Source: Prorocentrum cordatum (taxonomy: Eukaryota; Sar; Dinophyceae; Prorocentrales; Prorocentraceae). From it: a DNA stretch of 64,000 nt. Each line of letters starts with the position of its first letter. Positions within the stretch are counted from its first letter, which is position 1. This document shows, piece after piece, positions 12,949 to 51,724 of this stretch. The stretch lies in NCBI GenBank assembly GCA_963575745.1, contig CAUYUJ010014354.1:348750-412749 (forward strand), read 5' to 3'. Made by a program: the position numbers and the translations under genes. The notes under the pieces are model-generated. The model was not told the origin of the DNA. It ran no database searches and saw only the letters and a program-made list of their open reading frames with translations.

Positions 12949-12979
<31 letters not shown>

Positions 12980-13387
12980 CGCGGCCGCGGCACGGCCAGC
13001 CACATGCACCAGCGCAGCCGCCGTTTCCCAGAGGCCGGCGGCGGCGGAGGCCTCGGCGGCAGCCGCCGCGTCCGCGGCGCATGAGGCGGCAGCAGCCGGG
13101 CCACCAGCCGCGGCGGCGGCAGTCCAGCCCGCGAGCAGCACGGGGCACGCCAGCCCGAGCAGGGCACCAGCAGCGGCGACGCCAGCAGCGTCACGCCCCC
13201 CCCCCCCGGCTGCGGAGACGGCGGAAGGGGGCCCAGGGTGCGGGGCAGCGGCGGCAGCCCAGCGGGCAGCCAGCGCCCGCCGTTGGCCCCGGCGGCGGGC
13301 GGCACGCGACAGCGCAGCGGCGGCGGCACCAGGCGCGCCCGGAGGACCGCCAGCGCCAGCCGCCAGCCGCGGGGAAGCGCCCGCCAT
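12419..13387 (-). CDS. Chlorophyll a/c-binding (LHC) protein fragment
   Basis: From ATG at 13,387 the frame gives a long Ala-rich leader with a hydrophobic stretch (ALLGLACPVLLAGW), possibly plastid-targeting. Roughly at 12,910-12,715 comes an LHC start: GSPLRVIENSLDALAPAGPW, DAAGFTADG, and first-helix signature HAELEHGRASMLATM then IEPEITG. The E..HGR core is the chlorophyll- and charge-pairing signature of LHC helix 1. In dinoflagellate antenna proteins this is followed by a PGYLSPS segment and two more helices. Here the frame runs instead into Asp/Arg-rich, low-complexity sequence and the duplicated PPPASL segment. I see no helix 2 or 3 downstream. It is therefore a truncated copy, or one exon of a gene whose next exon lies elsewhere. 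Family call firm; functionality doubtful. Confidence 0.72.
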
Positions 13388-13564
13388 GGCACGGGAGGGG
13401 GGGGGGCCAGGAAGGGGCACCCCTTCCCGGCTCCCCCCCGGGCGCGCCGGAGGTCAGGGCCGACCTCCGGCCCCAGGGGCGCGGGCGACGGGCCAGCTCG
13501 GCAACCTCGAGCCAGAGCGGCCTTGATCCAGGCTACGGAGCTGGTGGGGATACGCGAAGCATCA

Positions 13565-16796: not shown

Positions 16797-16888
16797 CGGA
16801 CGCCACGCGCTGCAAATACAGAGGCTCGGCTGCTGTCACGGGGGGGCGGCCACGGGGCCTCCCAGCGCTTGCACCGCGGTGGCTTGAG

Positions 16889-16910
16889 CTTGAGCCGAAA
16901 TGGCTACGGA
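16889..16910 (-). other. Relict dinoflagellate spliced leader
   Basis: The minus strand reads TCCGTAGCCATTTC then GGCTCAAG, one substitution (T to C) from the canonical 22-nt leader. A further CTCAAG follows at 16,883-16,888, possibly the stub of an older leader. In dinoflagellates the leader is added to mRNA by trans-splicing, so a genomic copy ahead of a gene marks reverse-transcribed mRNA. Confidence 0.85.
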
Positions 16911-24579: not shown

Positions 24580-26880
<2,301 letters not shown>

Positions 26881-26884
26881 ACTG

Positions 26885-32299: not shown

Positions 32300-33980
32300 C
32301 CGCCGACCCTGGCCGCCCCCTCCAGCACCGCCTGCAGGTCCAGAGGATGGAGCGGGGGGCCCTCCAGCCCACGCTGAAGAAGGACCGACCACGTCGTCAG
32401 AGTTGAGTGCTCCGCAATGCTTTGCAGAAGGAGAAACGTGACACATTCTTCGCACAAGCACAGAAGCTGCATTTCCAACACTGTCCTTTACAAAGTACAG
32501 CTCCTCCTTCGCGCCAAGGGTAATCGCAGCGAGGCTGAAGACTAGAAACGAGAGGAGGCCAAGCGCGAGCATCTTGAGTGGCCAAACCCCCCCGACACCT
32601 CTGGCCAAATGACGGGGAATTCCACTGCCAATGCCACGGCGCCCACGCCTAGCCTTTGCCTTTCCCGCCTCTGCCACGCGCCATTGCCCGATGCGAGACG
32701 TGGCTGAGGTTCCCGCGGGAGACGCGAAAGGGAACACCCTCGAAAGTAGACGGAGCCAGATGGCCCGCAACACCGCGAAGCCGTTCTGCAGGCGCGCTGC
32801 GGCAAGCACAAAAACTCGCGCCAGAACGGCTCACCCCCCCCATCGGCCCCAGGAGGAAGAGGAAAGAAAATGGGAGACGAAAAGACAGGAATGACAAGAC
32901 TGCCCATCCTCCGGAGATCTGCTCCGCCCCCCCACTGGCGCTTCACACTGCGGCGCGGCATTGCGCATGCATGAACGGTGCGCGCGCGCGCGCAAGGCCG
33001 TCATCTGAATTATTGTGCCGTCCTCCCACTGGCGCTTCACACCGCAGCACGGCATGGCACGCGCATGCGCGACGTGCTCTCTCACACGCACACACACACA
33101 CACGCACACGCAAAACACATGCACGCACCGCCTTCCCGGTCGTTCCGATACACCCTTCTTGAAGTAAGTCTCGGAATCAAAGTCTCAGCGGCCGGCGCTG
33201 CCGGCGGCCTCTGCGCCGCCCCCGGCGCGCAGCCGGTTGAGCAGGGGCTGCCCGGGTGGGTCGCGACAGCTTCAAGTCCCGCGCTAAGCCATGAGGTGAT
33301 TCGAACAACAACCTACAAGCAACAGAATCGAAGCAGAGTCGGCAATGCCAGAGAAGCCGGAACGAAATCGAAGCTGAGCCGGCTAAGCCACCAACGTCAA
33401 CCTAAAATCGAAGCTGAGTCGACGCCTCCTTTGATGTCTGAACTAAGTAGATAGCGTCGTTTCTTTCTTCGCCTCCGTCGCAGAAACGGCGGGCGGGCTT
33501 CTTTCCACCAGAAAACGAACCCCGCCCCACACAAGAGCGAAACAACGCATATTACATCCGCCGACCCTGTCGGCGTGTGGAGGAGGCTGCTCCGATTGCA
33601 TCGTCTTCTTCGACGTCGTCGTCGCCGTCGCCGCCCCCTCTTTCCCTGGGCCCGTCGCCGCCCCCCCCTTGTCCTGGGCCCCCCTCCCCGAGCGCGCCAA
33701 CCAGCGCGAAATTGGGCAATGTCGATATTGAGTCGAAGGGGGGCCCCTTCCCTTTGATCCCTTCCCCGGCAGGGGGGGGGGGCCCAGGGGGGCGGTCCCT
33801 GAGGGGTCGCGGGGAAGCCCCGGGTCAGAGCACCGCCCGCCAACAAACCAGCGCTTGATCCTGGAGAACTTGAGCCGAGCGGAAGAAGGGGGAGGGGCAG
33901 GGGTGAACCCCTTCCAAGGGGAAGAAGAGGGTTGGAAGAGGAACCGCCCTAGACCACCTATGCCCAGAGGGCTATCTGGC
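32300..33980. other. No gene supported
   Basis: A short CA tract at 33,088-33,120, three ATCGAAGC-GAG-CGGC repeats at 33,327-33,420, and GTCGTCG/CCG-rich sequence at 33,600-33,660. CACTGGCGCTTCACAC occurs at 32,934 and 33,028. Confidence 0.45.
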
Positions 33981-33984
33981 GAGT

Positions 33985-34145
33985 GCTCTTCGAGGCCTCC
34001 TGGGGCGTCTTCCAGCTCTCTTGGGCCGTCTGGAGGCCGTAAAGACGTCTTGGACCGATCGTTCGGCGATTCGGGGTCCTCTTGGACCGTCTTGGGGGCC
34101 TCTTGGTGCACTCTCGGCTCGTCTTGGGATTTTGTTGGGCCCTTC
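33985..34145 (+). repeat. Class L repeat immediately 5' of the retrotransposon ORF1
   Basis: TCTTGGGCCGTCTGG and TCTTGGACCGTCTTGGG. A polypyrimidine stretch then leads into CCCCAG at about 34,165 and the ORF1 coding text. Confidence 0.7.
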
Positions 34146-34159
34146 TTTTCCCTCCCGCT

Positions 34160-34810
34160 CCCCAGCTCACCCAGGGCCCGACGCCTGCCACGCCGCCGAG
34201 CACGCGGCAGCCGGGCACCCCAGTGCGCGGAGTGCTAGGCGGGGCGTTATCCGATGCAGCGCCAGTCGAAGTTGTGGCCTCTGCCACTCCTGCCGCTCCT
34301 GTCGACAAGCGGGCCCGCCTCAGGAGCCCCCTGACCAGGGCGAGGACCTGCGGGGCGACGAGGAAAAGGGGAAAGGCAGGCAGTCCGTGAACCCCTTCCG
34401 GCAGCCGGAATTCGCGAGTGCCGAAGCCACCATCGTGGACGCGGAGCCCGTGACGATGGGCGGGATCGCCAAGCTCCTGAAGCAGCAGTTGGCACCTATG
34501 TCATATGTGGTGGATGCCTTGCGCAGCGACTTCGGGAAGCTGGAGGTCCAGGTCGCGTCCCTCGGCGAGACTCTGTCCGGCCGGATGGAGGGCGCGGGGG
34601 CGGCCATGATCAACGCCGACTTGCGAGTGGACAAGTTAGAAGACATGCTGCGGCAAGTCCCCACGACGAGCGACGCGATCGAGGCCATGATCGACAACCG
34701 TTTCAAAGAACTCTTGTCGAATACTTCTTCGAGCGCCGGGTCCCCAGACCCCCGCGGCCACGTGGTGAACGAGCGCTTCGCGACGATGGTCGTGGGCAAC
34801 ATGGGCGGCC
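34160..34810 (+). CDS. LINE-type retrotransposon ORF1, 5' half (interrupted)
   Basis: A gag-like ORF1. A Pro/Ala-rich start (PTPATPPSTRQPGTPVRG, VDKRARLRSP) changes frame at a C5 run near 34,327-34,331. Coding then runs uninterrupted from QGEDLRGDEEKG through VTMGGIAKLLKQQL, LRSDFGKLEVQVASLGETL and DLRVDKLEDMLRQV (heptad-like coiled coil) to NERFATMVVGNMGG. Coding stops at the GGCC at 34,807-34,810, where the inverted-repeat element begins. The same frame resumes at 48,073 with LGDLSQTTERLKSKL. One C missing from the C5 run explains the early frame shift. Confidence 0.75.
34807..34810. repeat. Candidate target-site duplication GGCC, left
   Basis: GGCC directly outside the left terminal repeat, matching 48,073-48,076. 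Collapsing the two copies and removing the intervening segment restores the ORF1 frame. A 2-bp GC duplication with a one-base-longer terminal repeat would fit equally. Confidence 0.7.
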
Positions 34811-34839
34811 CCAGTGGTCCTCAGGATCTTGCGTTAAGA
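34811..34839 (+). repeat. Left terminal inverted repeat
   Basis: Begins CCAGTGGTCCTCAGGATC and is identical over 29 bp to the complement of 48,044-48,072. The stem GGATCTT/AAGATCC (34,824-34,842) can also form a small hairpin. Confidence 0.92.
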
Positions 34840-34854
34840 TCCCTGATCTTGTTG

Positions 34855-34885
34855 TGTTTTTGGGATCTTGCGTCAAGAGCCCCAA
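34855..34885 (+). repeat. Left subterminal GGGATCTTGCG repeat
   Basis: TGGGATCTTGCGTCAAGAGCCC repeats the inner part of the terminal repeat (GGATCTTGCGT-AAGA). Two more copies lie inside the right end. Confidence 0.75.
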
Positions 34886-34889
34886 CGCA

Positions 34890-36765
34890 ATGAAATTTCA
34901 GGTTTTTGCTTATTAAGCACGCGCGCATGGAATTCATGTGCCCCCAACAAGAAAATGTAACACACCAGCCAGCGGAGTACCGCAAGCCTATCAAACAACC
35001 CTATAACAACCCATCGAGATAAGAGGATCGGCAAAATGATTCCCTCATGGTCACCATCACCAACATAACCACCAACATCTCCCTCATCATTTAGATATGT
35101 TTTGGTTGGCAAGGCAAACAGTACCGAAACGTCGACCAGTGCCTACGATGACATCCACGCAGAAATCACACATTCTGCGACATCGACACACGTCAGCTGG
35201 GACGCGCCGAATCTAAAAACTAAACTCTGGGGTTGCCTAAAAAAATGGCCAGGGCGTCTTTCCAAGCGACAGAAAAAGCATGGCACCCTTTCCTTATAAT
35301 TGGTGGCGGACCCGCTTCGAAGCGCACCATTGAATAAAAAACTCTTCGGCATATCATCCCAAGTTTGACGTCTCATCCATAATCATACCCATGTTCGTGT
35401 TGTGTCTTGTTTCTCGTCCTCCTCTTCCTCCTCCGCCTCCGCCTCCTCCTCCCGCATCCTCCTCCTCCTCCTCCTCCCCCTCCTCCTCCTTCTCCTCCTC
35501 CCACCCACTACCTTCGTCAAACTGTCATGGGCGGTGCGCCGAGGAGCAATTCATCGGCAAAACGCGACTGCGCTATCGCTCGGGCGCTGGAAGGGTGTGT
35601 GTGTATATATATATAGAGACAGGAATACTGATAACGATGTTCGCGTGCGTTTGCGCGCGTGCGTGCGTGAGTGCGTGGGAGAGAGAGAGAGAGAGATTGT
35701 GTGCGTGTGTGTGTGCGTGTGTGTTTGCATGTGCGTTGTTAGGTCGTCCGTGAAATGCAGACGAGAGAGGTTCCCCTCAGCAACCCGATCGCGAACTCAT
35801 GTGAAACGTCAGAGTGCCGCGCGCACTGGCACGCAAAAGCAACACGTGCGCCTTTATGCAAACATGCGTTGTGCTGCACTTGGGTGAAAAGGGACACCCT
35901 TGCAGAGGGTGTGAATGATGAACGGGCGGGGCCACTCGAAATCATCATCACTGCGCCTTGGCGGAACGGAACACAAACCGACACCGCGTGCGCGTGACGC
36001 GTCTGACACCGCATCCAACAGCTAGGATCCTGCACGCAACGCAGGGCGTGCCGATAGAAAAGCATAAACCCGTTGCAGCCCCCCCTCCGCGTCAACTCCT
36101 CAATCCTGCCTACGCTCCTCCGCCTTCTCCCCCCCCCCGTGTTCCCACTCCGTGTCGGTTTTCGTGAGCCCCGTCATCCCCCTCTGTATGCCTCATCGTA
36201 TCTCGTTCACCAAATCTGATCCCACACACCCGCTACCACACACTGAACATCATATGTGTTTCACTGTTGTCTCTTCCACGTGCCTCACATGCCGCACGTG
36301 CTTCGTTTTCAAATTGTTACCCCCGACCCGTCGTTATCCTTACACCCCCGCAATCCTCGGCTATCTTACGTTCCTTATGTGTGTTCCTGTCACCGTGTTT
36401 GAGCCGACGTCCACTGGCAATGCATAACATCCCTCATCCACCTCCTCATTACGTGCCTGCCATAGTGGGCGCAACGGTAAGGAACGCGAAATCGATGGAA
36501 CGGCCAGGGACCTGAATTATGAAACAATGTCACTGATAAAACACTCGACGCATCAGATGCGCTTGCGTTGCGCTCCGAACCCATCGGCGGTGCAATCGAT
36601 CGAACTCGCATCAATGGAACGATGGTGGGGCGCATGATGAGGATGGGTGGGGCCAGATGAGGAGGTTGAGTAGAATGACGAGTCACAACACAGTGCTGTT
36701 GCATTCGCACCAGTTCTCGCGAGTACAGCCCCGAGCAGCGCCTATCGAAAAGATGCGCCAAACGC
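34890..36765. other. Non-coding left arm of the element
   Basis: CCT-rich microsatellite (35,415-35,510), TA then GA and GTGC tracts (35,595-35,735), and no credible gene. Confidence 0.5.
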
Positions 36766-36770
36766 TGCAT

Positions 36771-37049
36771 CTAATCAGCGCCATCAGCGGCAGCTGCCTG
36801 CACAGAACTGCCCGCCGACCCCGAACCGAACAGGGTCGTCTGCTCAGAGACGTCCGCACTCAGCATGGCAATCGCCTTTGCCAGGTCGTCAGGGTATTTC
36901 TGCGATCCGTGCGCGTGATCCGAAGCCGTCAGCCCACTCCCAGAACCCTTAGTCAACGGGACAGCAGACTCACCACGCAATGCCAGCGATTGGTTCCCGT
37001 CCTTCTTGCTGCGAGCAAGGTAGGTCTCAGCTTTCTCCTGGGCGGGAAA
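36771..37049 (-). CDS. Terminal exon, unknown protein
   Basis: Follows an acceptor-like AATAATTCAG at 37,050-37,059. It is open for 92 codons to a stop at 36,771: AETYLARSKKDGNQSLALRG, HAHGSQKYPDDLAKAIAML and an Ala/Gly/Ser-rich end. Non-repetitive and soluble-looking. It could be the last exon of a gene downstream of the transposase, or a distal exon of the transposase transcript. Confidence 0.4.
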   Translation of the reverse strand, partial: FPAQEKAETYLARSKKDGNQSLALRGESAVPLTKGSGSGLTASDHAHGSQKYPDDLAKAIAMLSADVSEQTTLFGSGSAGSSVQAAAADGAD

Positions 37050-37483
37050 CTGAATTATTGCAGATGTAGGAAGTTGCCATAACACCACGGAACATCGACA
37101 TTGGATCGAGAACGATTAGATTCAAATTCTGTGTATATCAAACCTAGTCAAAGCATAACGTGCGTTACACAGATGTGTACTCAATATATGGGAGAGGGAG
37201 ACGGGGCGGATGTGGTGGTGGAGTCGCACGAGCAATATGAACGATTGCATCCGAAATCTCCTTGGGCAGCGTGACGTAAATCTCAAGCTGTTTATGAAAG
37301 GGCGCGCCAAACGCAGACGACCAAGTGAGTACCCTGTGAGATCTCGTAAGCACCAGCGCCTCTGCAAATGGGTGAAACTGATACAGGAGGCTGTTGATGG
37401 GCTGCTCGATGCACGCGTACACTCCACGCGTATAGCACAAATACCACAGAAAGGACCTGAGCTCGCCGGTGGTTTGAACTCCC

Positions 37484-37600
37484 ATGGCCCAACGCGGTTC
37501 CAACGCGTTCCAACGCGTTCCAACGCGGTTCCAATGCGTTCCAACGCGTTTCCAACGCGTGCGTTGGAACGCATTGGAAACCAATGTGTTCAATGTATAG
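37484..37600. repeat. CGTTCCAACG decamer array with terminal palindrome
   Basis: About five GCGTTCCAAC units end in TTTCCAACGCGT-GCGTTGGAACGC, which folds back. Same family as 37,655-37,722, 41,305-41,555 and 46,630-46,716. Confidence 0.9.
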
Positions 37601-37654
37601 ATATATACAGGTAATATAGAGAACGACGTATTTGACGAAAGCGAGCCATCACCC

Positions 37655-37722
37655 CCTATGGATAACCAACGCGCTCCAACGCGTGCGTTGGAAACGCGAT
37701 GGAACGCGTTGGAAATCCATCG
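37655..37722. repeat. Palindromic TTCCAACG repeat
   Basis: CACCCCCTATGG-type left flank, CCAACGCGCTCCAACGCG, then GCGTTGGAAACGCGATGGAA and an ATCCAT right flank. A near-perfect hairpin, closely related to 46,630-46,716. Confidence 0.85.
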
Positions 37723-38459
37723 TGGGTGAGATGTGTTCGCCGTTTTCGATCTTCTGGTGTTGAAACCTTTACACAGGTATGCCATCGCTCCTAAATGTAA
37801 ACTTCCACTCCTCCTCATAATCATCCATCTCGTCTCCATTCGGATTGTTGTGGCATGTGTGTAAGGTGTGCGTTATTGGGGTGTGAGGGTCAGACGATTC
37901 ACGAGATAAAGACATTCGACTCTGGGGCGGGGTGATTAATGGGTGCGGGCCCACTGATCAATCACGCACGTCCAGAGCATGCACGGGCAACTTTTGACTT
38001 AACCCCTGATCTCAACACCGATCACTCGATGCACACTGAGGCACGGACAAGATAACAGCGCACGAGTTAGCTTCCTGCACGGGTCCTAGCTCCTCGTCCC
38101 CAAGAAAGCAATTGTCCGCGCTGCGCTTGTACGTGCCTCGGGACAGCCACATCAACCAAGTGCGGCACTCTGGAGACGCCCACATCGTGCCCTTTGGAAC
38201 GATCTCGTACACGCAATAGATTGCGTACAGCAGTCCACAAAGAGTAAGGACGCACTGGCAAGGTTCATCAGTCCTCTCAATCGTTCTCGTGTCAACGCCG
38301 AAAGTATCCTGAGCGTGCTTTGCACTCGCGCCCTCACCAGAAAAGAGTAGGACAAGAACAGCTGTGCGTTCCACATTCCATTGTGAAGCAACTCCCAATG
38401 CGATCGGCAACAATTCAAAGACAGTGAGTGGTTCCACACATCCAGATCGGGCAAGCGCA

Positions 38460-41186
38460 TCACGAGCCGCACACTGAATCCATGATGGCACTCTCGAGGT
38501 CCATGGCTTCTCCATGGTCGAAGTTCAACGAAGGATCTGCATCTTCGTATGTAGAGCTGATGTATGGATTGAGCCTGAGACACGCGATCAGGTTGAACGA
38601 TAGATGGACTCGAATGTAAAATGTTGCCCGATGGGCTACCTCGGCAAACCCCCTGAGGACGGCGTTCAGAGACTCGTCCTTCCAACAACTGTACGCTGTC
38701 GGGTCCCCCAGAAACGGGATCCTGGGACATTTTTTGCATAATTATGGGCTGAGATGAACACTTGGCGCCTCTATCCTAAATCCTTACCACAACTTTCGGG
38801 TTTACCCCTGCGAGCCACCCTCTTGTCAATCTTCATCTCCATCACGTGTTCCCTCCCTTCCCCAAGTTCCTTCCCCTTTCCCAATTGATGCTCGTTCCTC
38901 TCATCTCTCATACCAGGCATTAGCATCAGCCCCCTCACTCTTAATCCGTACACCAACCTCCCCCTATATCATCCTCGATCCCCCAATTAGGTAACAGTAG
39001 TTAGCCTGCGTATGCATGCCCCCATGTGAAAAATGGATCCTCCTTGTCAGTTCGTACATGAAGTGGTGCTTGGGGACCATCGAAATCCTAGCTGCCTTGC
39101 TTTGGGTAAGGGCGACCTTCATGTTGTGGAATATATTGTTAAACTGCTCCTGCGTCGGTGCCACTGGCGATGTCCTCAGGAGCTCGAGATAATCGGTTAG
39201 GGCTGCGCCAACTCTGGACAATTCTGTGAAGTATGGCACGCGCTGTCCATGCCGCCCCAGAACATCGCACGCATAGAGTAGTACAACTCCACTTTCATGA
39301 CCTTTCAACTTTACTGGGCACCCAGGGTGGCACATCTCAGCTGTGTCCGTAGAGTCTCTTCTGTCCCCTAGCATCGCCAATGTGAGGTCACCAATTCTGT
39401 GGGATGGTTCCAGGTTAATTCTCGATTGCCATTGGAGAAAATCTGATCTAAGATGTTTAACTGCAAGATCCAGTCGGCCATCTAACGTTGAAGAGCGGAC
39501 CTTAAACGGATTATTCAAGATGGTCCGCCAAAGCACAGCCCCAATGAACCTCTGCACAGGACCCATGTAAACAGTATGCAGACTATCGACTGTTAAGTTC
39601 TCCACACGAATGCCAGTGCCCTCGTCAAAGATCGGGTTTGCATGAACCACAGGGTCCACAAGCTTTTTGTTCGAACCTGGTTCAAACCTAGCTCTCCAGA
39701 AAACACATTGAACCCCGTCATCTGGAATCTGGGATTTCGCAAATGTATCGGGGTCGGGCATTCCCTCGAACGGCTCCAAGCGATCGCCTGCCAGAAGACC
39801 GAAACGCGGAACATCGGCTCGCAGCGTCCTCCCCCAGAACCCTCTCCCTTCCATTGGAACCAAACCACCCGACTCAATAATAAGACGCTTCTCATCTTCA
39901 GATGCAACAATTACTTGCTTACAGTGGCTGGCAATACTGGCCGTATTCATATCGTGTGTTTTTGAAGGCCATGGACAGTGGTCAACTCTGCAATCGTGGT
40001 ACCGCTCGTGGCAGGAGCTAGCGGTGCACTCACAAAAGGGGCACATATTGTATTCTGACGAAACCGACGGGAAACCAAATGTGTGTGATAACTCAGCCAA
40101 ATCCCCTTTCAGCCAAATAACTGCTGCTCTGAACCCTAGCTCTACCCCTTTAATTTTTATGATGTCTAGCAATGGGTCGGCATCGTCAAATGGCGTGTCG
40201 TCATATCGCCGATCAAACCTGCGCCCTTCGGACAATTGCGACAACTGCCACGACAAACAGTTCAGCATCGGGAATATTGAATCCCACCCCCGACAGCCAC
40301 ACCTACACGTTTCTAGTTCTCGAAGGCAGCCGAAGTAGTATCGTTTGGACGTCATCAAGTTTATAAGCCACACCCCGCTGATGCTATCAGCCCTGCCAGC
40401 AACGTTGGAAGAGTATCGAACCCCGCCGATAAACAACGCAAGTGGCAGTGGGTCGGCCTGTCCATTTGCGCGCGCATCCAGAGTCACGGGATGTTGGTGG
40501 TACACTGCTGGCCACGTTCGCTCTGCAATCGTACCAATCATGCTGGAATCATTTTGCACATCATTATACACGAACTCGTGCAGAGCAGCAAATGGCACAG
40601 TCTGATATGTACGGCCTAGGCTGTGGCGGTCAACCACTGGAATGTTTTCCCAAATCATAGGGCCAGCCTTAGGTAATGCTGAATCTAACTTCCGTTGGTA
40701 TTTACCGCTCTGTTTACCTGGTTCCAGCGCGTAGCGAGCCCAGTCAACCCCGAGAACCCCTGCATCCTTACAATAGTGAGCACACACGCAGAAATCTTGC
40801 GCAGTTATTTTACCACACACTTTAAGCGACAGCAAGTGCTTGAGCAAATGAGAGCCAGCATCCCTCCAGCGTTGCCGCTGGATCTCGGCCTCCACATTCA
40901 AATATGCAGACATGTCATGTGTCCTTCGTCGGGAACGGTTAGGGGATAGCGCCAAGAGTTGGCTTGAGGTGAAACTTGCTCCTACTGAACGGCAGAGCAC
41001 AACATGCCATGTCGATAGGGCCCCCATGCTACCCACATGCCGCACGACACGCCATCTCACGAGCCCGCTGTCCCTGACGAGTGACACTCGTGTAGGATTC
41101 ACATGACCTGTTACTGCTACCCCTAATGTTATAGTGATACCCCACCCGCCCGCCTTATTCAACACAAGGACGATCGCCGAACACAT
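38460..41186 (-). CDS. DDE-like transposase of the TIR element
   Basis: Two exons at least. Exon 1 is a 740-codon open frame (41,186-38,964); the likely start is ATG 40,913, giving MSAYLNVEAEIQ, since the first 91 residues look like leader. Exon 2 (38,721-38,460) follows an acceptor CCCAG and encodes CWKDESLNAVLRGFAEVAHR and YEDADPSLNFDHGEAMD, then stop. Core features: PLALFIGGVRYSSN, CRCGCRGW, GVELGFRAAVIWLKGDLAEL, a Cys pair MCPFCECT, TVDSLHTVYMGPVQRFIG and PKHHFMYELTRR. The 'hydrophobic strand ... R ... GD ... CPxC' layout is like CACTA/Plavaka-grade transposases. Where those have an Asp after the first strand, this one has Gly-Gly, so catalytic competence is doubtful. The exact exon-1 donor is unresolved; TACTGTTACC near 38,992 is the only nearby GT. 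Confidence 0.72.
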
Positions 41187-41304
41187 ACTTTGGACGTTGG
41201 CACCTCGAAATCACCAATGCAAACTCATCTGAGGTGCTAACAATGCATTACAATGCAGCGCGCGTGCAAATTCATATCTTCTGAAGGCGGCCGATGCCCT
41301 CCAC

Positions 41305-41555
41305 CGGCTTCCAACGCGTTTCCAACGGCGTTCCAACGGCGTTCCAACGGCGTTCCAACGGCGTTCCAACGGCTTCCAACGGCTTCCAACGCTGTTCCAA
41401 CGCTGCTCCAATGCTATGGTTTTGTGAGGATGTCTCAGGCGATTGCTTGAATTCTTACAACTTCCAACGGTCGTCCAACGGCGTTCCAACGCTGGCGTTT
41501 CCAACGGTCTTCCAACGGTCTTCCAACGGTCGTCCAACGGTCTTCCAACGGTGAC
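41305..41555. repeat. TTCCAACGGCG 11-bp direct repeats, two clusters
   Basis: GGCGTTCCAACGGCGTTCC-type repeats at 41,305-41,413 and GGTCTTCCAACGGTCGTCC-type repeats at 41,459-41,552. They are separated by a segment related to the 152-bp array at 57 kb. Located between the transposase start and the next gene. Confidence 0.92.
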
Positions 41556-41961
41556 CCGCCAGGTTTTCCAAGCAAATCCACAGGGGAGCGTGTCTCGCAT
41601 TGTTTTTTTACAATTTTCCAGCATGCGTCGTTACATCAAGTACCAGGAAGCACACGCACCCAATACTTCCACTGTGGGTGGTGGGAATCGCCGCTGCAGA
41701 CAGTTGAGCGACCATCTTCCAAGCGAAACCGACGTCAAGGCATGAGCTTAACCATACATGTGCCCACCTCCACCCACCCGCACTATGTAGCAGCAAGAAC
41801 GCCTGTGTAGTTTGCAGGCGGAAACACGCTCCCTAAAGGCCGCAACCTCTGACGCGCAGGGTTGAACCTCGCGTGCAGTCAAAAGATGCCTCATGCGCGC
41901 AAGTGGCGGTCACGCGTCTCCCCACACGAGAAACGTGACCTGCTGCGTCCAACGGTAGCAC

Positions 41962-42920
41962 CTACGATGCCTTCATGCGCTGCATCCTCAACTCCGCCTG
42001 GTCGTTCATCATCTGCATGTGGTCCTGGATCTTGAGGATGGGAGCGTCGAGCTGGCAGCAGAAGTTCTCGAGGTTGGCGTTGAAGCTATCCTCGCTGCCC
42101 TCGTGGAGCTCGGACTTCTTGAAGAGTGCGAAGTTCGTCGCCTTGATGAAGCGCTCGTTGAAGCCACCCGTCCCTGGTGCAAGCAGGGCCGCGAACATCT
42201 CCTTGAAGATCTTGTTGTCATCGGCTGCCCATGTGCCCCACTTGGCCTCCTTGTCGTCTTCGATCTCTTTCACGAACGCTCCGCAGTTCATCAAGAGGCA
42301 CGCATAGCTGTTTTTCATTTGTTTGGCCTTTGCTTCGGCGTTGCCTTTCAGTGCAGCGTATCCGCGAGGCCTGCTGGTGACCCCTGGCTTGGTCTTGGCC
42401 TTGGCCTTCGCCTTGGCCTTCGGCTGGGCGCCATCGCCGACGGCCGCCTCCTGGCCCCCGGTGGTCGCGTCGATCTCGCGCTTGCGGCGGAGGCTGCGTT
42501 TACCAAGCTGGTCAGCTGCTGCAGCACCGCCCCCCTGGCCGTGTCCAGGAGGATCTGCCTTCTGGGGCGTCTCGCCGCCCTGATGCAAGTGACCCCTCAA
42601 ACGTACAACATCCCGACCTCTCACATACCTTCCCTCCCCCACCCTCCGAGTGGAGGGCAGGGGAGTAGAACTGGACGAGGAGGACATGGAGGCGGAGGAA
42701 CGACAGGATACGTTGATCCGAATCCGTCCTCGAGCGCGGCCTGCTTCTTGGTCGTCTGGTCGAAGAACCACTTCAACTGCAGCTGCCAGTGCTTCATGGC
42801 GCCGTCCTCGCCCTCGTCCACGGAGTAGTGCCACCGCACGCGCTTCGTGAACGAGTGCAGCTGGAAGTAGCTCGTGCCAGCTTGCAAACAGCTCAGGGCG
42901 TTCTCGATCGCAGCAGCCAT
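41962..42920 (-). CDS. Cargo gene B: Lys/Ala-repeat protein
   Basis: Unrecognised. Exon 1, from ATG 42,920 to 42,712, encodes MAAAIENALSCLQAGTSYFQ and RVRWHYSVDEGEDGAMKHWQ to GFGS. A donor GTATCC follows at 42,711. The best-fitting acceptor (TTTGAG, ending 42,596) keeps frame into GHLHQGGETPQKADPPGHG. Exon 2 (42,595-41,962) has a basic KAKAKAKAK tract, then a globular helical stretch (YACLLMNCGAFVKEIED, WGTWAADDNKIFKEMFAALL, LENFCCQLDAPILKIQDH), ending KAS-stop. Total about 280 residues. No homology claimed; the basic tract suggests nucleic-acid or nuclear targeting. Confidence 0.6.
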
Positions 42921-43141
42921 CCCTTCCTCGCCGCCGCCCTCCAACCAAGCGATCCTCCCTAAAGGGAGGAACTGCCTTTGAACAAAATAACTGCAACCCA
43001 ATCCGATCGGGCGCTGTCCTTGGCGCGCAACGGGCGCACGCGTAAGGGCCTGGCCAATGCGATCGGGCATTGTCCCGACACTTTCGCGCGCACCCGTCGT
43101 GCGCCAAAGAAAAACGCATCAATTGGGTTGGAGGTATTTTA

Positions 43142-44579
43142 TCATTCCTCGTGCCGCTTGGTGACGTCCTTCTTCCACTGAGAGGTCGTCTCCTGCCTGC
43201 TCTGCTGGTACTTGTCGTACTCGTCGCTGGCCCATTTCATCCTGAACTCCTCCTTCGCACGTGGGCCCTTGCAGCTAGTGTAGTCGGCCCGCAAGCTCTC
43301 GTTGTTGTCGACTGCCCGTTGCCAACGGCCTGCAATCGCATGCACTTTTCCAGTCGTAGGGACTTGGAAGCCCCGAGCTTTCACTGACTCCCAAAATTGC
43401 ATTTCTGCCGAAACGCCAGAAGCAAGCGTTTCCGTGTCGGCCGTGAACGCCTCTGGGGACTGCTCCTTGAGATCGTTGGTAGCCATGGTGGCGAGATCGA
43501 AGAGCATCCTGCTGGCGTTCGCTACGTTGGCGCTGGTGCGACCCATGATGTCGGTGGCGATGGTCTGCTTATCGGCGGTGTTGGCCGCCAAGAACTCGTC
43601 GAGGTCGTTCTTCTCCAACGCTGCCTGGCTGGTTGGCTGTGTGTGTGGGGGGGGGGGCGACCGCAAGGTGGGGGGCAGGGGGAGTATTTCTGCAGGAGGC
43701 ATCCTGGGAGGACGCGGAGTAGCTTCGGACCAGGAGATGGAACATGAGGAGGGAGATGAGGAGGATGAGGAGGAGGGGAGTAGGAGTAGGAGGAGGTGGA
43801 GCAAAAGGACAAGGTGAGGGAACATAATACTTACACCACGCATTACTCATGCACCCCATACATGCCTGCGAGAGCGCGCTCCTGCTCAGCTTGGCGAAGG
43901 CGCTCTCCAGGATCTCCTGCGGCTCACGCTGTAAAGCTGACACGTTTGCAAACCTACGCACCAACTAGAGGGCCCCCCAAAACTAAACTCCTCAAAACCA
44001 TCATCCTCGATCCTCCTCGTCACTACTCGTTACTTGGCGCCCCGTCTCCTTCTGCGCACCGATATCGAAGTTGCCAGTGCTGCCCTGGCCGCCCGCGGAC
44101 CAGTCCCCGCCATCCCAGTCCCAGGTCTCCTCGTTGTCCGTGCCGCTCCGACCGCCCCAGCCGTTGGAGTACCAGTCGTTGTGCTGCCACGCGTTCCAGC
44201 TCCAGTCCTGCCAGCCACAGGCCGATGCACTCGTGTCCCACCTGGCGGTTGGCTCAGCTGCTTCCCCGGTGGTTGGCTCCACGGAGCTTGCCGCCCCAGT
44301 GGTTGCTGCCTCGGGGGCCGAGCCCGTCGCCTCGGCGGCCTCCACGTGCTCGTCTACCTCCATGTCATTCTCTTCCTCCGTCGGCATGCCCCCCTCAACC
44401 TCGCCGCCGCCGCCCTCGGGCGCGTCGAACGGCACCCTGGGCGAGCTCTGTGCGCCAGCCCTGGCCAACTCCGAGACCGATAAACCATCCAAATCCTGCT
44501 CGGACAACATGGGCTCATCGCGAGGCGGTGAGTCATCAGACACAACGACTGGGCTCGAGGCGGCATTGGCAGTCAGCAT
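43142..44579 (-). CDS. Cargo gene C: acidic Trp/Gly-rich protein
   Basis: Three supported exons. 44,579-44,034 follows acceptor TTTTTCAG and encodes MLTANAASSPVVVSDD, an acidic stretch (EEENDMEVDEHVEAAEATG), then a Trp/Asn/Gly-rich region (WQDWSWNAWQHNDWYSNGW), and ends at donor GTAACG. 43,964 to about 43,830 encodes LVRRFANVSALQREPQEI and CMGCMSNA, ending at GTGTAAGT. About 43,625-43,142 encodes ALEKNDLDEFLAANTADKQ, FWESVKARGFQVPTTGKVHA and FRMKWASDEYDKYQQS, then stop. A further upstream exon may lie near 44,979-44,751 (donor GGGGTGATAT). No family recognised. Confidence 0.58.
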
Positions 44580-44589
44580 CTGAAAAATA

Positions 44590-45490
44590 AGAACGTTCGA
44601 GAGGTCTTTCGGTCGAACTGTGAACTTTTCGTGCTCTTCAAAAGCGTACTTCGTAGGCATACGTCACTTGTGCCAAGGAGGCTGCAGGGGGAGGAAGAGG
44701 AGGAGGAGGAGGAGGAGGAGGGTAAGGAAGAGGAGAGGTGGTGTATATCACCCCCCAACGCAGTCCATACAATATCAACTGTTTATCTGGCCCATGGAAT
44801 CCAGGCCTTGCGCGCAATGCAATGCGAGTGCAACCGAATTCCAAATTCCAAACAGTGCTTGCACAATCGTAAACGGTTTCAAAATGGTTTGAGTCCGAAC
44901 GAGCGTTAGGGGCAGCCATGAGGATATACAACCTGAGGGACAATACGCCTGGTGGTGGCGTGGCCGCTCCAACCGTCATAACTTCAGGGCGGGCGCAACC
45001 ATGTGAGCGACTATCGGCGGCGACCCCAATTGAACATTATTGCATTTAACACTGTGCTGAAACTCAGAGTAATGAGCAATGCTGGACGCAACATCGCACG
45101 CAATGCAAGCCCAAACGCCTGCCCCAGCAACGGCGGCGCATTTGCGTATCTGAAGACGCGTAGCCCATGCAAATCGCTCAAGCAAACGATACACCGCACT
45201 GCTCGCTGTCGCGCTCGACCAGCGCATGCAAACTAAAGAATAGAGCGGCAGAGCAGTACGCCTCCATTGTTATCCCTTCAGTCACCACCTCTATGCATCA
45301 TGCTCCCCTTTCCTAAACCCCCTCGCTCCACATGTTGTGTGTCGTTCATCCTTGCTTCCCCGCCATTTTTCCCCATCCTCCTCCTACTCCACCTCCTGCT
45401 CGTCATGCTCATCATGCCCATCCTTGCTGCCCCCTCCCCCATACTCATGGCAGATCCTCAGAGGCTAGAAACAAAGGCATCCGCGCAGAC
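44590..45490. other. Spacer between cargo genes C and D/E
   Basis: Contains a GAG/CTC tract (44,695-44,745) and a possible exon (44,751-44,979, minus). Otherwise nothing I can support. Confidence 0.4.
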
Positions 45491-45493
45491 CCG

Positions 45494-47584
45494 TCAGAAC
45501 TTCCAATCGTCGAACAGTGGGTCAGCTGCCCGCGGCAGCTTGTTAGCGACGAGCATCTTCGGCGTCGATGGCACGCGGTCATCATCGATGGGCGCAGCAG
45601 CAGGTTTCTTCATATCAGTAGGTGCGGTGGCTGGCGGAACGCCGAGTTGATGCTCAGGTGTCTCTGGCTCGGTCTTACCAGCTGGCCTCCTCTTCGACGA
45701 TGTCTGCTTCTCACAGGGGCCTATGCGATTGACCTTCCAGTCCTCGGCCCTCCTCTTGGCCTCGCTCTTGTCGTACTTGCCATCCGAGAAATCCCTGGCG
45801 AGTGTCGTCATGAAGGTGATGACCTCCTGGATGCTCTTGTCGTCCAGTGTGGTCACGACTATCTGCGCGACTTGTTCTGTTCTGCCGCCGACCATCTTCC
45901 TTTGGATCTGGATCATCCTGCTGTACTTGCGGCCCTTCTCCTTGTTCTCGCTCTCGATGTTGTTCCGAACGTTGACCTTGGACCCGTCCTTCTGCCAGAA
46001 CTCCTCGATGATGCGGTGGCCCTTCTCCTTGCCATCAGGCACGGCCTCGATCTGGGCAACCGTGATGTCCGCCAGCGTGACCTTCGTGCGGGAGCCATCT
46101 AACTCCGCGAAGTAGACGACTGCATTATCAGTCGGGAGTGCATCATCAGAAGGGCGCGTTGGCGCCCCCTCCGACGTCTGCTGGCCAATCTTGCGGATGG
46201 TGCCGTCGGTCTGCTTCCAAAGCCCCACGCGCACCACAGCCTGCTGAGAAGGATGTGAGTGAAGGTGAGGTTATGAGGTGGGATGCGAGGAGCGCCTGCA
46301 TATCTGGATGATACGTGTACTCGTAATTCACGAACTCGCTCTTCCCGCGGATCACGGCTTTCATCGTCCCCTCGGGCGGCGTGTCTTGCAACACCTCGTC
46401 CTCGCTACCTTCCGCCTCCGCCTCCTCCTCCGCCTCCGCGTCGGCCGATTCACCTGGAGCCTCCGCCTCGGCCACATCACTGGGAGCCGCCGCCTCCTCC
46501 GCCGCCGCCGAACCGCTCGCACAGCTGCTTGCAGATCCAGTGGGAACCGCCGCTCCATCGCCAGCGACGCCATCAGCCGCATCACGTGCACTGTGGTCCT
46601 TAAGGGCATCAGAAAGCATTTGATCCTACAGTCACCCCCTATGGTTTTCCAACGCGTTCCATCGCGTTTCCAACGCTCGCGTTGGAATACAATGGAACGC
46701 ATTGGAAATCCATAGGGTACACCTGCAGCCTAAAGGGATAAGCAATACCTTCAACGCCTCGTTGCTAGTCTGAGGGGTCCCCCTCCACCTCCTCCACCTC
46801 CTCCACCTCGTCTTCCACATCGCCCCCATCCTCATCCGTTTCACCCCCTCCCCCCCACTCATCCACCCCCTCGTTGGCGCAAAAGTGATGGGGGGGCGAC
46901 CCTCGTCGGCAGAAGCTGGGCGTGCGTTTCGTCGATGCCCCGAAACCCAGGCACGAGAACAATTCCCAAACGGATTCAATATCAATCAACAAGGGGCCGA
47001 TTGCAAGTACTGGGTGGATGTATGTAGGCTTGAACGTTGAACGCGTTTACCCCCCAGCGTTGGAAGTCATTGGAGCTGTCTTGGATAACCTTCATGTGGG
47101 CCTTCATCCAGTCGACGATCTTCTTGGTCGGCGTCGACTTGTACTTGTTCACCATCTGCTGGACGTCCCGCATCATTGCTCGCAAGCGGCTGGCCTGGCT
47201 CTGAGCCCACCCACTGGCTTCATCAGCGAGGTGCCACGCCGACCCCTTCCTCGTCGCCAGCTCCCTGAACGCGACCCAAGCGCACTTGGGCGTCATGCTC
47301 CCGTTGGGGAACAGCACCCGCAGCTCCAGGAGGAGCTCCTCGTGCTTCTTCAACACCTCCGTCGCCATCGGGCCAGAGTTCGTCTCCCTGTACGAAAATT
47401 TCATAGCTGACAGAATGTGTTTCTCGAGCACATCGGCAACCGCCACAATATCGGCTGTGCCGTGCGTTCGGCCCCGCTTGGCCGGATGACCTCCATCGCT
47501 GTCGTCGTCGTCGGCGGCAGCCGCCGCCGCCCTGCGCGGCGCGACCGCGGGCGCCGCTGCAGGGCGCTTCCTGGGCGGCGCCAT
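45494..47584 (-). CDS. Cargo gene D/E: four-exon protein starting near the right end
   Basis: ATG at 47,584, 488 bp inside the right terminus. Exon 1 (47,584-47,051) starts MAPPRKRPAAAP, a nuclear-localisation-like basic stretch, with acidic DDDDSDGG and then VADVLEKHILSAMKFSY, LLELRVLFPNGSMTPKCAW and QQMVNKYKSTPTKKIVDWMK; donor GTAAAC. Exon 2 (46,769-46,749) is a 21-nt microexon, TSNEALK. Exon 3 (46,625-46,296): DQMLSDALKDHSARDAADG, a Glu/Ala-rich run and EFVNYEYTYHPDMQ; donor GC. Exon 4 (46,240-45,494): AVVRVGLWKQTDGTIRKIGQ, VAQIVVTTLDDKSIQEVITF and PLFDDWKF, then stop. All junctions are phase 0, which supports the model. About 540 residues. Function unknown. Confidence 0.62.
46630..46716. 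repeat. Near-perfect TTCCAACG hairpin
   Basis: CCCCTATGGTTTTCCAACGC at the left pairs with GCATTGGAAATCCATAGGG at the right, with a short CTCG loop between CCAACG and CGTTGG. It lies in the intron between the microexon and exon 3 of gene D/E. Confidence 0.92.
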
Positions 47585-47989
47585 GCTGTCGTAGAGGAGC
47601 TACGCAGGGCTTGGGCAGCACACGTGCCAGACGTATCTGAGCCGCGCCGCTCTGGGCGACACGCGACACGACGAGACCGTTCGCCAATGCCAAACCTCGA
47701 AGCTGCAACCATGGGTTATCAAGAACTTGCTGGGGGGAAGGGGCTCTATCTCGAAATGCACGCGCGCGCATGCGCACTGCAATCCTCCAGCCCCATTCGG
47801 GCGTGTAGGCGTGATAACGCGGCTGTAACCATGATAGCTCAAGCCGATTTTGTCTGAACGTTACTATGAACCCCCAGACAACACATCATACTACCTACGA
47901 AACGCGTACATGATGATGGTTATGACGATGATGAGATGCGAAAAGTAGGGTGATAATGCTTTTTGATGAGTTTTGAATGAAAGCCATGG

Positions 47990-48043
47990 ATGGGATCTTG
48001 GAGCAAGATCCCAAGTGCATTGCAAGATCCCAAGAGAGTGGGC
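47990..48043 (-). repeat. Right subterminal GGGATCTTGC repeats
   Basis: On the minus strand TTGGGATCTTGC occurs twice, and a third copy forms a hairpin (stem TGGGATCTTG, 3-nt loop, at 47,991-48,013). They match the left subterminal repeat and the inner TIR. Confidence 0.8.
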
Positions 48044-48072
48044 TCTTAACGCAAGATCCTGAGGACCACTGG
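48044..48072 (-). repeat. Right terminal inverted repeat
   Basis: Ends GATCCTGAGGACCACTGG. Its complement equals 34,811-34,839 with no mismatch over 29 bp; the next base differs. Confidence 0.92.
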
Positions 48073-48076
48073 GGCC
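48073..48076. repeat. Candidate target-site duplication GGCC, right
   Basis: GGCC followed by TAGGCGACCTC, where retrotransposon ORF1 coding resumes (GGC CTA GGC GAC = GLGD). Confidence 0.7.
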
Positions 48077-48640
48077 TAGGCGACCTCTCGCAAACCACCG
48101 AGCGGTTGAAGAGCAAATTGGCGTCGCTTTCAGGTCCCACCCCGTCCAACACATACAGCAAATAAGCTTTTAGCGGAGTCATGTTCGCAAAGTTCCTCAG
48201 CACGGACACGCGCGACAAGGCCGCGGAGCTGCGTCGCAAGGCAAGCTGCGCGAACGACGACAAGAAGATCTGGGCCACCGAAGACCGCTCTGCGCCAGAG
48301 CGTGCCGCCCGGAACTACTGTCTTGGTCTCAAGCGCTTCTTGAAGGGCGAATGGGAGAGCCCGCGCAACATTTCAGTCAGCAGCGAGGCGCCTTACACTG
48401 TGACTGCGGGGGGCGAGCACGCGCTCACAGCTAAGGTCGCGGGGGGCAGTGTGGAATACGAGTGGCAGAGCGAGTGGGCCACCTGGTCCGAGCTACACGG
48501 CAACCCGCTGATCAAGGACCTCGCTAAGAAGTCAGACGACCTCCTCCAGCGCGCATCCCAAGGTCGCGAAGGGAATCCAAAAGGAAGGGCCAAGGGGCGC
48601 GGGCCCCATTGGGAAGCAAGGCATATGAGCAAAGTTTCAC
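48077..48640 (+). CDS. Retrotransposon ORF1, 3' half
   Basis: In frame with 34,810 after removal of the insertion: LGDLSQTTERLKSKLASLSG and PTPSNTYSK, an in-frame TAA at about 48,163, then AFSGVMFAKFLSTDTRDKA, RRKASCANDDKKIWATED, RAARNYCLGLKRFLKGEW and a basic GNPKGRAKGRG end. The internal stop shows that ORF1 is damaged independently of the insertion. Confidence 0.7.
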
Positions 48641-48834
48641 CCGTTTCACCGGTAGTCGGCCTTACTGCCAATATGAACCACGAGTTGTTGAGAATTCGCC
48701 CGCGCAAACACGTGCCCGCAGCGGCCGGCAATGCCGCTGCCTATCTTTACCTTGCTCCCCAACGTCCCACCAGAGCTGAGGAAGCACTTCGTTTTCGCGG
48801 GGGCCCCCGTCGCCCGCGTTCTCGGCTGCTCCGG

Positions 48835-49925
48835 GCGGCGCCCTGGAACGCGGAGGGCTCCGCGGACGCAACGCAGCTGGAGCTGGACTGGCACGCGGTT
48901 CAGCTCAGCATCGACATTCTGTGCATCCAGGAGACGCGCAAGGCAGGTTGCGATTATCACGTTTCTGATGGAGGTTCCCCCGCCGTTTCCTTCGGCGCCG
49001 CCGGCGCCGACCAGGAGGAGACGGCCGGAGTTGGGTTCATAGTTGCCCCTCATCTTCGCAACAGCGTGGTTGGATTCAGACAAAAGACAACACGCATGGC
49101 GCACTTGAAGTTACGGGTGGTTGGTGGCAAAGTTGTGGTCTGTAGCGCATATGCCCCGCGCAGCGGCGAACTCTTCGAGCGCCGGCAGGCCTTCTACAAC
49201 AACCTCAGTGCTTTCCTGTCTGGTGTATCTTCGCACGGGCCACTTTTGGTCCTGGGAAACTTCAATGCTCGGCATCATCGTCGCTTCCCACAGGAGGAGG
49301 GCATCATGGGGCCATGTGCTCGGCAACCCTGCGGCTGCATGCAATCCGCCTTCCAACCGTAGTCTGCCAGCAGAGCTTTGAACCAGACGCAAACTGTTCA
49401 TCGGCAACGCAGCCTTCGATCAACCAGCAGACCGGCAGATCACGTGTCATAACGTTGGGGGGAAGCCGTCTGGCGCCCCCGCGCCATATAATTTTGGACA
49501 GGTCGACTTTCTGTTGTTGTCAAAGGATTGGCTGGGCAGTCTGAAAGACATTACATGTGACCGGCGGCGCACTTTGGCGTCGCACCATTTTCTGGTCTAC
49601 GCAGATCTAGACGTGCATGTCCCAAAGGAGTCGCGACAACAGCCAATTCCCCGGCGAGACCTGCGCGCCCTCCGCCCCCCTGGGACATCTAACCGGTTTG
49701 CCGCGGCGTTCGCCGATCGCACAGAGGAGCTGGAAAACAGCATGCCGGTATCGACGGCATCCGACATCGACGCTCTCACGAAAGAGTCGTTCGCCACGGC
49801 TGCGCTTGCGATCCCTGCCCAGACGGCTACGCCGCGGAGACCGTGGGTCTCTGACCTCGCAATGGACATCATCAAAGCACGCACAGCCGCCAGGCGCCGC
49901 GGGGACGTGGACACAGAGAGACGGT
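48835..49925 (+). CDS. Endonuclease (EEP) domain of the retrotransposon
   Basis: The exonuclease-endonuclease-phosphatase fold nicks target DNA for target-primed reverse transcription. Visible motifs: WNAEG (strand 1), ILCIQETRKAG (catalytic Gln-Glu), VVVCSAYAPRSG, LLVLGNFNARHH (usual GDFN with Asp replaced by Asn), and RRTLASHHFLVYADL for the terminal SDH-type His. The frame breaks near 49,310 and resumes as LFIGNAAFDQPADRQ and FGQVDFLLLSKDWLGSL. A linker follows (SDLAMDIIKARTAARRRGD) to a stop at about 49,925. Confidence 0.75.
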
Positions 49926-49936
49926 AAAATCAGCAA

Positions 49937-51724
49937 GTGAAGGCGTCTGCGAAGAGAGACCGTGCAGAGCGGTTGGAACGCATTCTCGCCACTGGAGACT
50001 GGGGGCAAATTCGCAAATTGCGGCTGGGGGTTGCGCCTAGGCAAAGGCGGATGCGGGACATGCACGGCAAGCTTATTGATTCAGATTCCCGTCGAGATAC
50101 AATGGCTGATTACCTCAGCAGCGTGCAGTGGGCGGCGCGAGACACATCGCCTATGCAGGCAAACATGCTGGGGCCTTCGCTCCCCGTGGAAGTCGGGCCC
50201 AGTCAAGACTGGGAAGTCGTCGAGGCAGCAAGGGCGATGAGACGGGAAAAAGCTTGCGGATCAGACGAAATCCCTGGGGATTTTGAAAGCCAAGATGTCG
50301 CCCGGACTCGCCGGCGCAAGCTTGGCCACCGCGCTATGCCAGAAATGCTGGGAAGACGGTAACATCCCAGAAGGCTGGCGCGAGTCGCTGGTGACCACCA
50401 TCTTCAAGAAGGGCGATCCTTCCCTTTACGGGAACTACGGGCCCATCTGCTTGCTGCAGGCCGGTTGCAAACTTTTAGCAGCAATACTCTTGCGCCGCTT
50501 GAAGAGGACAGGGGCGGATAACACAATCTGGCGGACGCAGTTCGGGATCAAGTCAAAGCGCGGCACAAATGACGCGATCTTCATTGCGAGGCGCAGACTG
50601 GAGGAGGCATTCGCGCGGACTGAGAAGCCGCATGTGTTCCTCGCGCTGGATTGGGCCAAGGCTTTCGACAGTGTCATGCCCGACGCTCTCATAGCAGCCC
50701 TGCGCCGATTCGGGCTACCAGGCAAAATGCTGGACATCGTCCAGACGATCTACTCTGACCGGCTTTTCGCTGTTCGCGATGCGGGCAGGACGTCAGGGCA
50801 GCGAGAGCAGTGGGCGGGCATCTGCCAGGGCTGTCCTCTGTCGCCGCTCTTCTTCGCCGTTTTGATGACCGTCCTCCTCTGGGGCGCGAAGAACGCGCTC
50901 GGTTACCTGGCCGGGCGCGTCAGTGACCTGGTATACGCGGACGACACCTTGATTGTGGTTTCCAGCGCTGCGGGTGCGGAGGAGCACATGAAGGCCACCG
51001 CAGACGCCGGAGCTCATTTTGGATTTTGACGTGAAGCTCGAGCTCATGGCCACTGGGTGCAACGCCCATGCTATACTTAAGCCTGACGGCGACCCAATCC
51101 CGCAGAAGACGAGCATGATATACCTGGGAAGCGTCTTGACATTGGATGGTTCTGTGGGTGCAGAATTGAGCCGGCGGCTCGGCCGAACCAGGTCAGAATT
51201 CTATTATTTACAGCGTGCTTGGTCTCATTCTTCTGTCTACCAAGAGAAAGACCAACGTGTACTTTGCGTGCGTCGAGTCGACGCTGCTGTACAGCCTCCA
51301 CAAATCTTGGTTACGTCAGCACGAACTGGCCAGATTGAATGTTTTTCAGGCGCGGCGCCTGCGGAGAATCCTCGGCATCGGGCATTCTAATGTCAGTCGA
51401 GTCACCAACGCCGCAGTGTTGCAGCGAGCCGGACGCGGCAAGCTCAGCGGACCTCTTGCTGCGACGGCAGTTGATCCTGTTCGGGGAAATCGCACGCAAG
51501 GCCGACGACCATCCTGTCCGAATGGCTGTCTTCCAGCCTCCTTCCTGTGAGCTGACGCAGGCGCCCGGCCGCCCCGGAAGAGGGGCAGGCCCTGGCAGGC
51601 GTGGGCAGCAGAATTGTCTAAGCATGCTAAGCAGATGTGTCGTAATTATGGTTGGAACTTTTCGGGTTTGGGCACCTGTCCAGCGGAAACCTGGAAACCA
51701 GCGGTGCGCAAATATACTGTGTAG
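49937..51724 (+). CDS. Reverse transcriptase and C-terminal domain (ORF2)
   Basis: Pre-RT text ARAMRREKACGSDEIPG breaks frame near 50,275 and continues ILKAKMSPGLAG. RT signatures: GNYGPICLLQAGCKLLAAIL (usual NYRPISL), FLALDWAKAFDSVMPD (motif A), GICQGCPLSPLFFAVL (motif B), LVYADDTLIVV (motif C, YADD at 50,934-50,945), and MIYLGSVLTLDGSV (thumb). After a stop at about 51,028 and more frame changes come LNVFQARRLRRILGIGHSNV, LILFGEIARKADDHPVRMA, and the end CRNYGWNFSGLGTCPAETW to TAG at 51,722. Catalytic residues are intact, but the ORF is broken at three or more points. Confidence 0.82.

Follow-up and report, generated by a model that had tools for sequence, protein, structure and literature searches.

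How does one retrotransposon reading frame in the dinoflagellate Prorocentrum cordatum come to lie in two parts about 13 kb apart? The window analysed here is a 64-kb (64,000-nucleotide) stretch of contig CAUYUJ010014354.1, in which the frame of a long interspersed nuclear element (LINE) breaks off at position 34810 and resumes at 48077 (all positions are those of the window). The original prediction, made from the letters of the sequence, had proposed a large, probably young DNA transposon with cargo genes, nested in a retrotransposon frame. We conclude, with a probability of about 0.83, that positions 34811-48072 are one dinoflagellate cut-and-paste DNA transposon with a transposase of the CMC/Transib (RAG1-like) kind, nested in the LINE frame. 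The nested transposon of the original prediction thus gains support from its terminal inverted repeats (TIRs), an apparent target site duplication, an independent uninterrupted relative and a transposase-like gene. The ends and their flanks are as follows.

34811..34839, plus strand: left TIR, 29 bp, perfect, beginning 5'-CCAGTGGTCCTCAGG
48044..48072, minus strand: right TIR, 29 bp, perfect
34807..34810, no strand: left GGCC, apparent 4-bp target site duplication, the same 4 bp flanking both ends
48073..48076, no strand: right GGCC, the same 4 bp as the left flank

An inverted repeat of 37 nt (97%) pairs 34807-34843 with 48040-48076, and within it the sequences read inward from 34811 and 48072 are identical for their initial 29 nt, with patchy similarity beyond. 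The element so bounded is 13,262 bp long with termini CCAGTGG..CCACTGG, and its perfect 29-bp repeats are those of a cut-and-paste DNA transposon of the TIR type. A 23-nt piece of the TIR occurs at exactly two sites in the window, in opposite orientation, when up to 3 mismatches are allowed, and at none in each of 100 shuffled windows; the 29-bp perfect inverted repeat that had been noted at these borders is therefore real, and its two copies form a unique pair in the window. The exact 22-nt terminus had no match in viral contigs or prokaryotic genome contigs, collections not meant for dinoflagellate genomes, so that this result hardly informs copy number.

Is there a relative of the interrupted frame that lacks the element? 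The parts of the LINE in question are these.

33907..34810, plus strand: left part of the interrupted LINE frame (open frame, joined frame and alignment to the protein P0009)
48077..49359, plus strand: second part of the split LINE frame, containing a single in-frame stop and running into an AP-endonuclease domain
50241..51026, plus strand: RVT_1 reverse transcriptase domain (E 3.3e-29), assigned to the same LINE

When the flanks are joined with one GGCC, the left frame continues into the right-hand frame (...MVVGNMGG before the join and LGDLSQTTERLK... after it). Whether 0, 1, 3, 4 or 6 bases are dropped from the right flank, the joined frame remains open over 228-232 aa, so the open frame alone does not fix the join. 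A protein search with the joined peptide gave P0009 (282 aa) as the sole protein at E ≤ 0.001 among 2792 candidates; it is 81% identical over 95% of the query and aligns across the junction without a gap (MVVGNMDGLGDLSQATEWLK), and this alignment selects the join that drops 4 bases. Dropping 1 base (k=1) also joins the frames, with an extra residue that is absent from P0009, and drops of 0, 3 or 6 bases leave an open frame unlike P0009. The site is therefore a clean insertion of 13,266 bp, made up of the 13,262-bp element and an apparent 4-bp duplication of GGCC, and P0009 represents at the protein level the empty site by which the original prediction was to be checked. Since GGCC is palindromic, a duplication of anything from 0 to 4 bp gives an identical empty site. 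Four base pairs is the simplest reading and matches equal, perfect ends, so that equal GGCC flanks and the gap-free P0009 alignment together provide both a target site duplication and a clean empty site; a 3-bp duplication (GGC or GCC, which needs unequal ends), a 2-bp duplication of GC with ends CCCAGTGG, or no duplication would yield the same empty site and are less simple. If the element is made to start at CAGTGG, no equal flanks remain.

The two complementary halves of one open reading frame 1 (ORF1) described in the original prediction thus do join, without a gap relative to P0009; the frame is, however, shared with an AP-endonuclease domain (Exo_endo_phos, E 1.7e-6 in Pfam, in frame 48166-49359), and the right half contains an in-frame stop at 48163-48165, where P0009 has Gly. 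Judged from its sequence, the target is a decayed LINE copy, and the insertion point lies in the N-terminal part of its reading frame.

Which enzyme could have moved the element? The ORF at 38967-41210 on the minus strand is a transposase-like frame; with its start taken at 40913, the predicted product has 711 aa encoded by two predicted exons on that strand.

39040..40913, minus strand: transposase exon A, with G163 at the first-Asp site, D271, C291-x2-C294, D443-x-L-H446 and H616-x4-E621
38722..39039, minus strand: predicted intron, 318 bp, with AGGATCC at both borders and a non-GT donor (GA); borders inferred from sequence
38460..38721 (stop included), minus strand: second predicted transposase exon (B), containing E641, the predicted catalytic Glu, at 38673-38675

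At least eight protein relatives were found among 8000 candidates scored (E 5e-184 to 8e-39), of which P0001 is 47% identical and the others listed 28-31%; a second search with the family alignment returned seven of the same eight and none new. Exon B is the best match in the window to the C-terminal 75 aa of one relative, P0003 (E 1.3e-4, tblastn in all frames with composition correction and low-complexity filter off), the next matches being the end of exon A (0.096) and the best unrelated one (0.63). The second catalytic Asp (D2), C(2)C and D-x-L-H are present in all nine sequences, and the first (D1) is Asp in all eight relatives listed. The D1-D2 distance is 108 residues in P0001 and in the window copy, as against 99-102 in the other seven; D2 to C(2)C is 20 in eight of the nine and 19 in one; and the last His to Glu is 20 in P0003. 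The three acidic residues of P0003, in which D1 is intact, are D193, D292 and E642. For RAG1, the part of PMC4914335 that lists its residues gives D600, D708, C727, C730, H937, H942 and E962, with spacings of 108 for D1-D2, 19 for D2-C, an H(4)H, 20 from last H to E, and 207 from C(2)C to H(4)H. H(4)H is found in P0003 and P0007; P0001 has N-x4-E at this site, P0006 has Y and S in an unrelated-looking end, and four of the nine sequences have gaps. Similarly, at the Glu site P0001 has R and P0006 has G, in ends that resemble intron read-through or look unrelated, and five of the nine have gaps. We regard the 711-aa product as a probable cut-and-paste transposase with the motif order D, D, C(2)C, LH, H(4)H, E that is shared by CACTA, Mirage, Chapaev, Transib and RAG1 transposases, and the family as a probable RAG1/CACTA-kind transposase family invisible to Pfam. 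Because its first Asp is Gly and its H(4)H is altered, the enzyme of the window copy is probably dead. The youth of the element that had been suggested is accordingly only partly borne out: in its favour are the open transposase frame and the clean site, but the first of the catalytic Asp residues has been lost and the element is represented by a single copy.

Subterminal repeats of the motif GATCTTG accompany the TIRs.

34825..34870, plus strand: left GATCTTG repeats, with copies at 34825 (within the TIR), 34845 and 34864
47994..48058, minus strand: right GATCTTG repeats, with copies at 48052 (within the TIR), 48023 and 48004, and one at 47994 in the other orientation

Measured from the left end, the copies lie at 15, 35 and 54 bp; measured from the right end, the mirrored copies lie at 15, 44 and 63 bp and the single copy in opposite orientation at 73 bp. 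Seven copies thus fall in the outer 2 x 100 bp versus 0.028 expected (maximum 2 in 2000 simulations); elsewhere in the window there are six scattered copies, three in the element interior and three outside. In En/Spm, as described in part of PMC2613891, subterminal repeats are bound by TNPA, and transposition needs both TNPA and TNPD.

Two further genes are predicted inside the element, and all three predicted genes are on the minus strand.

45494..47584, minus strand: predicted accessory gene 1 (exon 1 about 47051-47584, exon 2 to 46296, exon 3 45494-46240; exon 2 start provisional)
about 41962..44660, minus strand: predicted multi-exon accessory gene 2 (open frames; start and exon borders provisional)

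Gene 1 has a lysine/arginine-rich stretch at its N-terminus and a predicted 55-bp intron (46241-46295) with a GC donor and CAGGC repeated at both borders; an excerpt of PMC7789003 mentions boundary repeats in dinoflagellate introns. Gene 2 is assembled from open frames at 44004-44663, 43145-43846, 42624-43118 and 41965-43236, and includes an acidic part and a KAKAKAKAK stretch. Similar sequences are probably common in dinoflagellate proteomes. The exon frames scanned for the two genes (three for gene 2) gave no Pfam match above the cut-off, and the coding profile used was trained on the transposase itself and has little information on other genes. Genes 1 and 2 are probably accessory DNA-binding or assembly genes rather than captured cargo, although this is the weakest part of our interpretation and both their splicing and their roles are putative. 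What was first called cargo is thus better read as a transposase and probable accessory genes.

How might these parts work together? An undamaged form of the 711-aa gene would encode a DDE transposase of the CMC/Transib (RAG1-like) kind, the presumed catalyst, and this enzyme would bring the two ends together. An accessory protein that binds DNA at the mirrored GATCTTG repeats would probably assist it, much as TNPA helps TNPD in En/Spm. The transposase would then excise the element and insert it at a target cut with a 4-bp stagger, after which repair would leave the GGCC duplication. Because the window copy has Gly in place of the first catalytic Asp, we infer that it was moved by an enzyme supplied in trans or that the Asp was lost after insertion.

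A number of points weigh against this interpretation. We have a single copy of the element, from one contig, and its termini, CCAGTGG, are not of the CA..TG form. None of the nine family members has a Pfam transposase match at E up to 5 (their sole Pfam signal is a sub-threshold Colicin_E5, E 0.12, in P0003), and searches of PDB at E up to 1 (single sequence) and at E up to 10 (profile) gave no sequence match. The window copy carries Gly at the position of the first catalytic Asp and Glu at that of the second His of H(4)H; just window exon B and P0003 show the catalytic Glu; and the C(2)C-H(4)H interval is 302 in P0003 versus 207 in RAG1. In addition, GATCTTG was picked only after the ends were inspected, and the models of genes 1 and 2 rest on open frames and candidate splice sites.

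Three other explanations deserve consideration. The one that survives best, though we think it unlikely, is that the element belongs to a separate, undescribed superfamily whose transposase merely converged on the D-D-C(2)C-H-H-E pattern. The missing Pfam transposase and PDB sequence matches and the termini outside both CACTA and Chapaev would fit such a superfamily, as would the fact that none of the eight relatives listed bears a functional name; its difficulty is a motif order and spacing close to those of RAG1, including a Glu exon that was found separately. We give somewhat less credence still to a non-autonomous composite, with ends from one transposon and enclosed genes that are host or foreign cargo. 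A transposase-like gene is enclosed, all three predicted genes run in one direction, neither end has any partner in the window but the other, and a transposase with a second gene is normal for CACTA elements, all of which argue against a composite in spite of the lost catalytic Asp and of genes 1 and 2 having no known transposition domain in Pfam. Finally, that the LINE was split by misassembly or by a segmental rearrangement is hardly credible, since, even with only a single contig seen, either would have to produce a 29-bp perfect TIR, equal 4-bp flanks and a gap-free independent relative across the join.

A single cut-and-paste transposon in a LINE remains our preferred reading, and the repeat content of the window changes at its borders. 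The original prediction held that its class L and ~88-bp repeats, common outside, stop there, and strings common outside are indeed scarce inside. With CTCTTGGG, CCGTCTTGG and TCTTGG as our own stand-ins for class L, 1 of 66, 0 of 26 and 10 of 187 copies, respectively, lie in the element (13.7, 5.4 and 38.7 expected by length), as do none of the five merged blocks of the 88-bp repeat. Conversely, all 16 copies of TTCCAACGC are inside, and G+C is 0.557 inside and 0.617 outside. Clusters of a palindromic CCAACGCG/GTTGGAA repeat, resembling miniature inverted-repeat transposable elements or introners, are found at 37489-37729, 41300-41552 and 46632-46713, and one such GTTGGAA cluster sits within a predicted intron of gene 1.

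Beyond the element, a spliced-leader relict with 1 mismatch (0 expected) lies at 16889-16909 on the minus strand, just upstream of an ORF at 15525-16835 (minus strand, 437 aa) that has no match in Pfam; relict and ORF together look like a reinserted mRNA copy. The ORF at 12422-13453 (minus strand) contains a partial chlorophyll a/b-binding domain (E 6.6e-9). Relict and domain mark the host as a dinoflagellate that is probably photosynthetic. A CA-rich microsatellite of 563 bp occupies 26320-26882.

Has such an element been described before? A search of one paper library for dinoflagellate literature on CMC-EnSpm found nothing; papers on dinoflagellate CACTA transposons describe no such dinoflagellate element in their titles and the opening parts of their abstracts; and the only paper listed for Symbiodinium CACTA transposases concerned Merlin transposons in eukaryotes, including alveolates. 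In the parts seen of two dinoflagellate papers, DNA transposons are given only in bulk and make up little, 1.56% in Symbiodinium microadriaticum and <0.1% in Alexandrium ostenfeldii (PMC3229502), and a 119-bp EnSpm6_SB match is tabulated for the latter (PMC3229502). Introners have been ascribed to non-autonomous DNA transposons (excerpt of PMC10666404), and those of Amoebophrya are called reminiscent of such transposons, with two putative transposases in only one of two strains (excerpt of PMC7789003). It is a long shot that the element, with its anatomy complete, belongs to a RAG1/CMC-like lineage of dinoflagellates forming its own superfamily, and that its relatives supply the missing transposase of dinoflagellate introners, whose introns have short boundary repeats and inverted ends; that notion is weakened because the same excerpt holds general transposase-mediated movement of introners to be ruled out in Amoebophrya (PMC7789003). 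The element is nonetheless a starting point in the hunt for the enzyme behind introners. Its exact ends, empty site, readable transposase and probable accessory genes provide a protein profile and end sequences for finding and classifying such elements, and thus a precisely bounded element to look for in very large dinoflagellate genomes.

How, finally, does the element compare with known transposon groups? Like En/Spm-CACTA elements, which have CACTA..TAGTG ends and a transposase plus a second ORF (part of PMC4158355), it is large, with a short TIR, a motif repeated near both ends, a transposase and a second multi-exon gene, and C(2)C after the second Asp. Unlike them, it has CCAGTGG ends rather than CACTA..TAGTG, a duplication of 4 bp in the simplest reading rather than 3 bp (GGC or GCC would fit only with unequal ends), and no Transposase_21 match. 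It shares with Chapaev, characterized by C(2)C, LH and H(4)H motifs and CAC..GTG ends (part of PMC4079192), a duplication in the 3-4-bp range (in the simplest reading), C(2)C and LH, with H(4)H in P0003 and P0007, but its ends are not CAC..GTG and there is no DUF1280 match. Because the termini of both groups are lacking, the element is not filed as EnSpm or Chapaev. Transib and RAG1 have the same order D-D-C(2)C-H(4)H-E with near-equal spacing, and differ in the shorter C(2)C-H(4)H interval of RAG1 and in showing no sequence match. Transib makes a 5-bp duplication, whereas the flanks here match for at most 4 bp. piggyBac has TTAA, MuDR 9 bp and Polinton 6 bp, and Helitron is without TIRs; these four were weighed by such features. 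Pattern searches with the transposase alignment in the viral and prokaryotic contig collections, which are not dinoflagellate collections, gave 63 and 91 pattern matches and 0 confirmed loci. KDZ was set aside, as Zisupton duplications are 8 bp (part of PMC12730594). In the same source the CMCT clade has 2-5-bp duplications, and C(2)C and H(3-4)H are common to ESTA, Plavaka and Lanisha (PMC12730594). Set beside these three by description only, our element differs from ESTA (TA duplications) and from Plavaka (2-3 bp, TGT or CATCA ends), but its transposase family has C(2)C like all of them and, in P0003 and P0007, H(4)H; its 4-bp duplication, in the simplest reading, falls inside the CMCT range, and its motifs make membership in this wider clade likely.

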